NCBI RefSeq assembly: GCF_025685565.1 | Contig: NZ_JAGSYE010000002.1 | Location: 992,001-1,056,000, forward strand | DNA: 64,000 bases | Source: Granulicella aggregans | Lineage (GTDB): Bacteria > Acidobacteriota > Terriglobia > Terriglobales > Acidobacteriaceae | Direction of reading: 5' to 3' | Shown here: piece by piece, positions 4,050-5,849 of the stretch | Layout of the letters: each line of letters begins with the position of its first letter | How positions within the stretch are numbered: position 1 is the first letter of the stretch | Position numbers and translations under genes: made by a program | The notes under the pieces: generated by a model | Databases searched by the model: none | What the model saw: the letters and a program-made list of their open reading frames with translations, nothing else | Told to the model about the DNA's origin: nothing

Positions 4050-5136
4050 ATGAAAAATAGAGTTTTCCCCTTACTTCGAGGCCTTCCGCGCACCACACGC
4101 TTCTGCTGACCATCCTCTGCGCCGGAGCGTCGACCAGCTTCGCACACGCACAGGGATGCCTGGCTGCACATACCAGCCAGCCCGTTATCTCCGCCCTTAC
4201 CGACGACGGCCACGGCGGCTTCAACCGTAGCGGACTGCACGGCCTTACTGTGAAGTGGACTGGCGTTCCTTCAGTTCCTTCCGCCACTTCACCGGCGAAG
4301 TAGAGGAGACGCAGCGCGCAATCCTCAACACCCAGATTAAAACCCACCAGAATATCTACGAGATCAGCGCCTCCTATCAATTGACTCCTCGGTGCTCGGT
4401 CAGCGCCTTTGTCCCGGTTCTAGAGTCCACGCGGAACCAGAAGTATCCGCCGACCGGCGTCTACGACATCGCCGGCATCGGCGACATGATCGTGGGCGCA
4501 CAAGCCTGGGTTCTGCGGCCACCGGCCGAGAACGGCGGCAACATCGCTCTCAGCGTCGGGTTGAAGCTGCCCACCGGCCTCTCAAACGGCATGGGCACGG
4601 GCACGCTCAAGGGAGTCACGCAGAAGTACGTCGCCGACCAGTCCATCCAGCCCGGCGACGGAACCTGGGGCTTCACCCTCTGCACGCAGGCCTACAAGAC
4701 GACCTACTTCCGGACCACGGCCTACTTCCAGGGCTCGTGGCTCTTCAACCCCGCAGACACCAGCGGTGTGCCTACCTTCCGCTCGCAGCCTGGGGAAGGA
4801 ATCATGTCCGCGACCGACCAGTACCTGTTCCGAGGCGGTCTCTCGCGCCACGTCCCCGAGGTTCGTGGCCTTGCCGCCAGCTTCGGCGGACGCATGGAAG
4901 GCATCCCGGTCCGCGACGCCTTCGGCAAGAGCGACGGCTTCCGCCGACCCGGCTACATCATCTCCATCGACCCCGGCATCCAGTACGCCTACCGCCATTC
5001 GATCCTCTCCGTGAACGGGCCGTGGGCGATTCAACGCAACCGCCGAGCTTCCGTCACCGATCTCGCCAACGGGACACATGGCGACGCCGCCTTCGCGGAC
5101 TACGCGGTCATCGTCGGACTCACGCACTCGTTCTAA
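4050..5136 (+). pseudogene. Outer-membrane-type protein gene with two apparent 1-base frameshifts
   Basis: The main open frame, from a GTG at 4255 to 5136 (293 codons), encodes a beta-rich protein with alternating hydrophobic residues, aromatic girdle positions and a terminal Phe (GLTHSF), as in outer-membrane barrels. It has no signal peptide. The missing N-terminus is visible in other frames: MKNRVFPLLRGLP from the ATG at 4050, then a signal-peptide-like stretch LLTILCAGASTSFAHAQG from about 4103 in the next frame, running on to LHGLTVK just before 4255. Two single-base deletions, near 4090 and near 4254 (AAGTGG for a presumed AAGGTGG), would rejoin all three segments. It is therefore either a decaying gene or sequencing error. 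No function is recognised; metal or phenol-type transporter barrels are possible relatives. Confidence 0.65.
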
Positions 5137-5155
5137 ACCAGCCCAAAACGAAACA

Positions 5156-5193
5156 AAAACTCCCCGTAAAGCTCCGGCTTTGCGGGGAGTTTT
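5156..5193. terminator. Bidirectional rho-independent terminator
   Basis: A long hairpin with A-tract and T-tract on its two sides: arms AAAACTCCCCG.AAAGC and GCTTT.CGGGGAGTTTT around a TCCG loop. It lies between the convergent outer-membrane-type gene and the GNAT gene and can serve both strands. Confidence 0.9.
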
Positions 5194-5228
5194 ACATAAA
5201 GATTACGTTCGAAGTACACACGACTTAA

Positions 5229-5244
5229 TGTTCCACGTGGAACA
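5229..5244. promoter_or_regulatory. parS: parS centromere-like site (ParB binding)
   Basis: The 16-base perfect palindrome TGTTCCACGTGGAACA matches the chromosomal parS consensus TGTTnCACGTGnAACA recognised by ParB. A half copy, TGTTCCACG, follows at 5252-5260. It lies in a non-coding gap between convergent genes, the position expected for such a site. No other full match was seen in the window, and no parAB genes are present. Chromosomal parS sites normally cluster near the replication origin, so the window may lie in the origin-proximal part of the chromosome. Confidence 0.85.
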
Positions 5245-5318
5245 TTCGCTATGTTCCACGGCCAAATTCACGTAGTGGCACATCCTTGGAGTCGCGAAAA
5301 GTGCCATATCTCCAGGGT

Positions 5319-5849
5319 TTAAGCCCTTTGTGACGAGTTGGCCCCAACCGCAAGCAACTTCTCGTAGCAGAAAAATCGCAATCCTGGCCGAAACTCCAAC
5401 CCGATCTCGCCGGAGAGATCGTACCCCAACTTTGGCATCAATCGCTGCATCACCTGGTTGTGTGTATTCGTGTCCGCGCGGACCCGGTCGATCCCCTTCC
5501 CTTCGGCGACAATCTCGGCCTGCTGCATCAAGGCAATCGCCACCCCACGTCCCTGGAACGCCGGATCTACCGCCAGTCGGTGCACCACAATCGCCGGAAC
5601 CTCAATGTCCCATCCGGCCTGTACGTACTCTGGCGACTGCTCGGTGGTCAGAGCAATGACACCCGCTAGGCTGCCATCAATATCCGCGACCCATAGCTGC
5701 GATAGCGCAATGTCCGCGTCAAACACCGCTGGATTCGGATAGATATCGTCCCATTGCAGATTGCCGGAGGCGCGCATCAACGGCACCACGGCACGGACAA
5801 TCTGCATGATCGCGGGAACGTCGCCGGGCTGGGCAAGCCGAATCTTCAT
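5319..5849 (-). CDS. GNAT family N-acetyltransferase
   Basis: A single GNAT domain of 176 residues. The acetyl-CoA pyrophosphate-binding loop is seen as VDPAFQGRGVAIALM (QxxGxG/A type), following the beta-4 strand VVHRLAV; the C-terminal part has NxxxxxxMPKLGYDLSGE, the usual closing motif for small-molecule acetyltransferases. The substrate cannot be read from sequence. Its ATG overlaps the stop codon of the neighbouring upstream GNAT gene by 4 bases, so the two are translated as a pair, probably in one transcript starting opposite the LysR gene. Confidence 0.88.
   Translation of the reverse strand: MKIRLAQPGDVPAIMQIVRAVVPLMRASGNLQWDDIYPNPAVFDADIALSQLWVADIDGSLAGVIALTTEQSPEYVQAGWDIEVPAIVVHRLAVDPAFQGRGVAIALMQQAEIVAEGKGIDRVRADTNTHNQVMQRLMPKLGYDLSGEIGLEFRPGLRFFCYEKLLAVGANSSQRA

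Follow-up and report, generated by a model that had tools for sequence, protein, structure and literature searches.

A conserved parS site far from the origin cluster of a Granulicella genome, probably coupled to a binding site for a second protein

The palindrome at positions 5229-5244 of the window, the 64,000-nucleotide stretch of DNA analyzed here, is on balance probably a genuine chromosomal parS, one of a selected class of far-arm sites in which parS is paired with the site of a putative second DNA-binding protein. It has the consensus parS sequence, its composite arrangement recurs at other distant loci, and it is conserved in the related G. aggregans (G067); it is separated from the origin cluster by a distance that is a lower bound in this draft genome, and the same two genomes share a change in the recognition helix of ParB. 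From the sequence, ParB would be expected to bind these composite sites, and the second motif is predicted to be the site of another DNA-binding protein. Among the matches listed in our literature search, in which subscription journals are mostly missing and preprints are not included, we found no paper on parS in Acidobacteria or in Granulicella.

The site lies in an intergenic gap (5137-5318) between two convergent genes, a + strand ORF at 4255-5136 (293 amino acids as called, with an uncertain start, and with no Pfam match at E 0.001) and a − strand gene at 5319-5849 coding for a GNAT acetyltransferase; a strong terminator-like hairpin of the + strand ORF is at 5156-5193. An earlier note on this DNA had described a perfect palindrome matching the ParB site consensus, placed after a terminator in a convergent gap and followed 7 bases further on by a second partial site, and each part of this description is confirmed. 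The 16-bp palindrome TGTTCCACGTGGAACA is the sole exact match in the window and is identical in G. aggregans, and the half-site TGTTCCACG, on the + strand at 5252-5260, begins 7 nt beyond it and is likewise kept in G067. This half-site contains GTTCCAC, the half-parS core, at 5253-5259, and together with the right parS half makes up an inverted repeat of 10 bp (CGTGGAACAT-5-ATGTTCCACG) that the earlier note did not mention. There are four copies of TGTTCCACG in the window, two of them the halves of parS itself, against 0.52 in shuffled sequences; the arrangement of parS and half-site has one instance genome-wide, and it is retained in G. aggregans. The companion motif GTAATCTTTATGTAAAA (consensus GYAATNNTTNNGTAAR), likewise absent from the earlier note, is on the other side of parS; it is read on the − strand at 5190-5206, starts 38 nt from the parS start, and shares four bases with the 3' end of the terminator hairpin. 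Alignment of the nine composite sites described below identifies a degenerate copy of a middle block (GGTGTGACAT) at 5212-5223 on the − strand, which in the window reads TCGTGTGTACTT. Two sub-threshold Rfam matches at the terminator were taken as chance.

The genome of the window (G000) is a draft of 5.74 Mb in 14 contigs and contains 15 exact copies of parS against none of the backward control, so the match in the window is not a chance one. Eight of the copies form an origin cluster at C1:907,830-909,544, in the rsmG-parA-parB region, with the only ParB_N match of the genome at C1:910,958 and dnaA at C1:961,910, 51 kb further on. The window site is thus a credible ParB site, and its identity is supported at the sequence level by the single ParB_N match, the three-domain ParB, the eight identical sites at a locus where both ParA and ParB are present, and the nearby dnaA. 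The genome-wide count proposed in the earlier note as a check came out divided: the copies are clustered rather than evenly spread, with 8 of 15 at the origin, but the others are scattered over C1, C2, C3 and C6. Outside the cluster there are seven exact copies at six loci, namely C1:206,444 and 206,520 (one locus), C1:1,329,053, C1:1,530,080, C2:997,229 (the window), C3:59,522 and C6:63,638. Two more sites differ from parS by one mismatch, C1:1,530,121, which adjoins 1,530,080, and C1:2,073,009, which has a CGCG center. The orthologous place of this CGCG-centered site (C1:2073009-2073024) in G. aggregans holds a perfect parS, and the site may therefore have been lost recently in G000.

The inference in the earlier note that the palindrome marks an origin-proximal location does not hold, since the window is on C2, and the cluster lies with parB and dnaA in the 0.91-0.96 Mb region of C1; with exact copies on C1, C2, C3 and C6, a single parS is no origin marker in this genome. 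On C1, 908 kb of sequence lie to the left of the cluster and 1.49 Mb to its right, and on C2 the window site is separated by 419 kb from the closer contig end; cluster and window site are therefore at least 0.908 + 0.419 = 1.33 Mb apart if the assembly is right. The C3 and C6 sites are at least 0.97 Mb from the cluster (as for C2, these are lower bounds in a draft genome), C1:2,073,009 is 1.16 Mb from it, and the remaining outlying C1 loci are 0.42-0.70 Mb away. Synteny with sampled stretches of G022, a genome of 4.04 Mb in one contig, places 41 of 44 matched C2 ORFs about 1.0-2.0 Mb from the G022 cluster and the right end of C2 near the G022 terminus; the three exceptions are one ORF at C2:386 kb, mapping to 0.35 Mb, and two at C2:1,018-1,019 kb, mapping to 0.54 Mb. 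The same comparison performed poorly as a control on C1, where ORFs at 0.43 Mb and 0.65 Mb map to 1.81 Mb and 0.006 Mb in G022. Distance from the cluster is thus poorly conserved on C1, and it is the contig bound, not synteny, that carries the claim of a position far from the origin. GC skew in 40 sampled stretches was scrambled and did not place C2, and a search for a dif-like pattern gave one isolated, non-conserved match in 12 genomes, on C1, and did not locate the terminus. C2 does not look like a separate replicon, given the one ParB_N match, the one DnaA, and the presence of its counterparts on the single G022 contig. In six one-contig genomes (G022, G047, G049, G065, G066 and G068) no exact parS found is more than about 0.67 Mb from the cluster or from parB. 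An exact parS in the draft genome G001 (C2:652,334), at least 1.37 Mb from its cluster and without the companion motif, indicates that G000 is not alone in having far sites.

The far sites of G000 are composite. Reading away from parS there is a GTGACAT-like block and then the tail GYAATNNTTNNGTAAR, an order present at four far G000 sites (the window, C3, C6 and C1:2.07 Mb, the last of these parS-like) and at five outlying G067 sites, and at all nine the distance from the start of parS to the start of the tail motif is 38 or 39 nt. By locus, the composite is found at all four far loci of G000, at none of its three nearer outlying loci and at none of its eight cluster sites, and in G067 at five of nine outlying loci and none of ten cluster sites. 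The tail motif occurs five times in G000, four times at the far sites and once at C3:353,688 (backward control, 0), and five times in G067, every time at parS (backward control, 2). Across 34 other genomes of the genus there are 29 occurrences against 22 of the backward control; we inspected 26 of these 29 and saw no parS-like site within 120 nt of any of them. As the motif was defined on the same sites at which it is counted, these genome-wide counts measure specificity and are not an independent discovery, a circularity answered in part by a quartet test in which side and shift were allowed to vary. In this test, 12 of the 17 columns of a block are identical across the flanks of the far sites; the maximum in 400 random quartets was 6, the nearer outlying sites gave 3, and ten cluster quartets gave 3-4. 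A possible likeness of the tail motif to Xer, Tus or OmpR-type sites was also considered. Across 24 parS loci there is a single tRNA gene, 3 kb from the site at L057.

Several of these sites have palindromic surroundings. The far parS on C3 sits in a perfect 42-bp palindrome (L015:4510-4551), and the C1:2.07 Mb site is flanked by perfect arms of 16 bp around an asymmetric center (L017:3994-4041); in the G. aggregans counterpart of the C3 site (the C3/C7 pair) the arms are altered on both sides and are still largely palindromic. Such palindromes could be hairpins or terminators at gene ends, with the match to parS incidental, and this account would draw on the arms changed on both sides, on the placement of three of the four G000 composites in convergent gaps (by ORF picking), and on the good folding of the window gap as RNA (z −5.45). 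However, the separate terminator accounts for much of the pairing in the window fold, the C3 and C1 hairpins are not directly followed by a T-run, and the 16-mer is constant while the arms vary, those of the window not being palindromic at all. Identical 16-mers also cluster next to parB, and we consider an RNA or transcription-end element improbable.

Comparison with G. aggregans points to conservation of the composite sites themselves. The GNAT protein is 94% identical to that of G. aggregans M8UP14, the nearest named relative found and presumably the strain of G067, and the gap region is 86% identical; within it a non-coding block at 5178-5263 is identical to G067 at 85 of 86 positions, with surroundings at about 85% identity, and the one change, at position 5250, is in the 7-nt spacer before the half-site. 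Counting the six exact loci and C1:2,073,009, an exact parS occupies the orthologous position in G067 for six of the seven outlying loci of G000, and C1:1,329,053 has no counterpart among the G067 sites. The seven sites at the six shared loci agree between the two genomes at 111 of 112 positions of the parS core and at 940 of 1260 aligned positions of the flanks, a comparison that favors core identity because pairs were picked for holding a site on both sides. Each of the four far composites of G000 has its counterpart beside the same genes in G067, where there is also one additional copy, and in three of these four orthologous pairs the spacers have diverged and the blocks are still within the pattern. 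In nine other genus members, from 41 genomes searched, no parS was found beside the GNAT orthologue, and there was one lone half-site-like match.

Each genome has several copies that resemble one another, located at unrelated genes and in some cases bearing hairpin arms, which might also reflect a small mobile or REP-like repeat with parS as a chance passenger; we regard this as very improbable. Copies at non-orthologous places have blocks in common but not spacers or arms, all four far copies are at the same genes in G067, no plasmid or phage record matched, and the full composite is absent from all 52 viral stretches that have a partial pattern. Assignment to a REP/MITE-like family was rejected, as only short blocks are shared and the four far positions are orthologous in G067.

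Outlying parS sites elsewhere in the genus have neighbors of other kinds. In G001 and G022 (L048, L051, L058, L059 and L060) a −10-like hexamer stands at exactly 18 nt from five of the six outlying parS, as if parS occupied the −35 place, and one of the hexamer-bearing sites (L048, L059) is orthologous between the two genomes. No such hexamer is found within 36 nt of any of 39 sites in the five clusters read, and four non-orthologous G001/G022 sites share 10 of 17 columns against at most 5 in 400 random quartets. In G011 a single quartet of outlying sites was tested and shared 4 columns, and so the −10-like companion is not general in the genus. At L050 an outlying parS has a promoter-like hexamer 7 nt away, and at L062 a second near-parS (ATGTTCCACGTGGATAA) stands alongside. 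It is possible, in view of the −10-like companion, that coupling of ParB to local partners has arisen repeatedly in the genus. The −10-like companion also provides a parallel for the reading that the window site is regulatory, with ParB and a second regulator controlling the neighboring genes, as does the position of the C1:2.07 Mb composite upstream of a phosphate transporter gene. Nevertheless, the window copy faces two gene ends, no sigma-70 promoter was found near the gap, and the genes neighboring the composite sites are unrelated to each other; regulation of this kind is in our view unlikely.

The ParB protein of G000 (L011:10806-11735) has a ParB_N, an HTH and a C-terminal domain, and it matches ParB structures already solved. 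We compared it across 18 genomes, a 19th locus (G039) having given no ParB, and found that the recognition helix reads GMAR in G000 and GMPR in G067, and GKER or GKDR in the other 16. The lysine equivalent to Caulobacter K171 is thus changed to M solely in G000 and G067 among the ParBs read (loci L011 and L214). According to PMC7383237, K171, S172 and R204 of Caulobacter ParB contact parS and are conserved in ParB and Noc. The S172 equivalent is A in G000, P in G067 and E or D in the other 16, and so is kept in none of the 18, and the R204 equivalent is K in G000, G067, G023 and G047; since changes at these two positions also occur elsewhere, the lysine is the change special to G000 and G067. 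The equivalents of Q162, R173, N178 and G201 are kept in G000 ParB, including R173 and G201, which separate parS readers from Noc. The arginine patch is GERRWLA in G000 and GERRxLA in all 18, as opposed to the GERRxRA cited in PMC7022226. Because the composite is known only from two closely related genomes, its tie to the ParB change amounts to one evolutionary event.

In its 16-mer, in the clustering of sites at parAB near dnaA, and in its three-domain ParB, this system is like other chromosomal ParABS systems; the window site differs in its distance from the cluster, its companion at fixed spacing, and the lack of a K171 equivalent in the ParB that would read it. The half-site has the same heptamer as the half-parS of Pseudomonas aeruginosa, which is bound by ParB there (PMC10419367, PMC7022226) and is represented by hundreds of separate sites, unlike the half-site here, which is fused to a full parS and conserved. 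Known parS are almost solely near ori, according to PMC5815017, which cites an earlier survey. The same paper reports that extra parS in Caulobacter are harmful mid-arm, better tolerated near ori and much less harmful near ter, and PMC5098823 reports that no P. aeruginosa strain with parS at 1 or 1.5 Mb could be obtained and that displacement by 400-650 kb is harmless in Caulobacter and V. cholerae. The window site resembles these ectopic or displaced parS in its mid-arm or far-from-ori placement, but it is native and kept. Given these published constraints, a native and conserved far parS with a companion is unexpected, though less so if it is near ter, and the tolerance of near-ter parS in Caulobacter (PMC5815017) means that a site near ter need not have a special partner.

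That tolerance also speaks for the reading of the window site as an ordinary redundant parS, displaced from the origin zone by chromosome rearrangement and with no special role, which we hold to be rather unlikely. Scattered parS are present in several members of the genus, and window genes at C2:1,018-1,025 kb, about 20-30 kb from the site, map only 0.53-0.54 Mb from the G022 cluster, so the region may once have been nearer the origin. Redundancy leaves unexplained, however, both the companion motif at fixed spacing at four far sites and the conservation of the block.

If the window site is indeed one of a selected class of far-arm parS, the most likely course of events is that ParB dimers would load at parS and close as CTP clamps, and that a neighboring protein, held at a fixed base distance, would meet the loading or sliding clamp and keep the complex local. 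Such a local complex could allow the site to organize DNA of the far arm, or to mark it, and yet not serve as a second centromere. A third ParB half-contact may come from the half-site, and the partner is a candidate roadblock, recruiter or co-regulator. More tentatively, it is possible that there are two classes of ParB loading site in Granulicella, an origin cluster and far-arm or terminus-side parS with a partner site, and that the second arose with the changed ParB helix and serves a position-specific job of its own, such as organizing or releasing DNA of the terminus half, without a second centromere.

The experiments in Caulobacter and P. aeruginosa suggest that parS has to remain close to the origin or, failing that, outside mid-arm. 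In a lineage whose ParB has lost the lysine, far sites that are native, conserved and paired with a second motif would offer a natural setting in which to ask why ParB is limited to one centromere and how it can take on other jobs, and a far parS accompanied by a second motif hints at an undescribed job of the segregation machinery.
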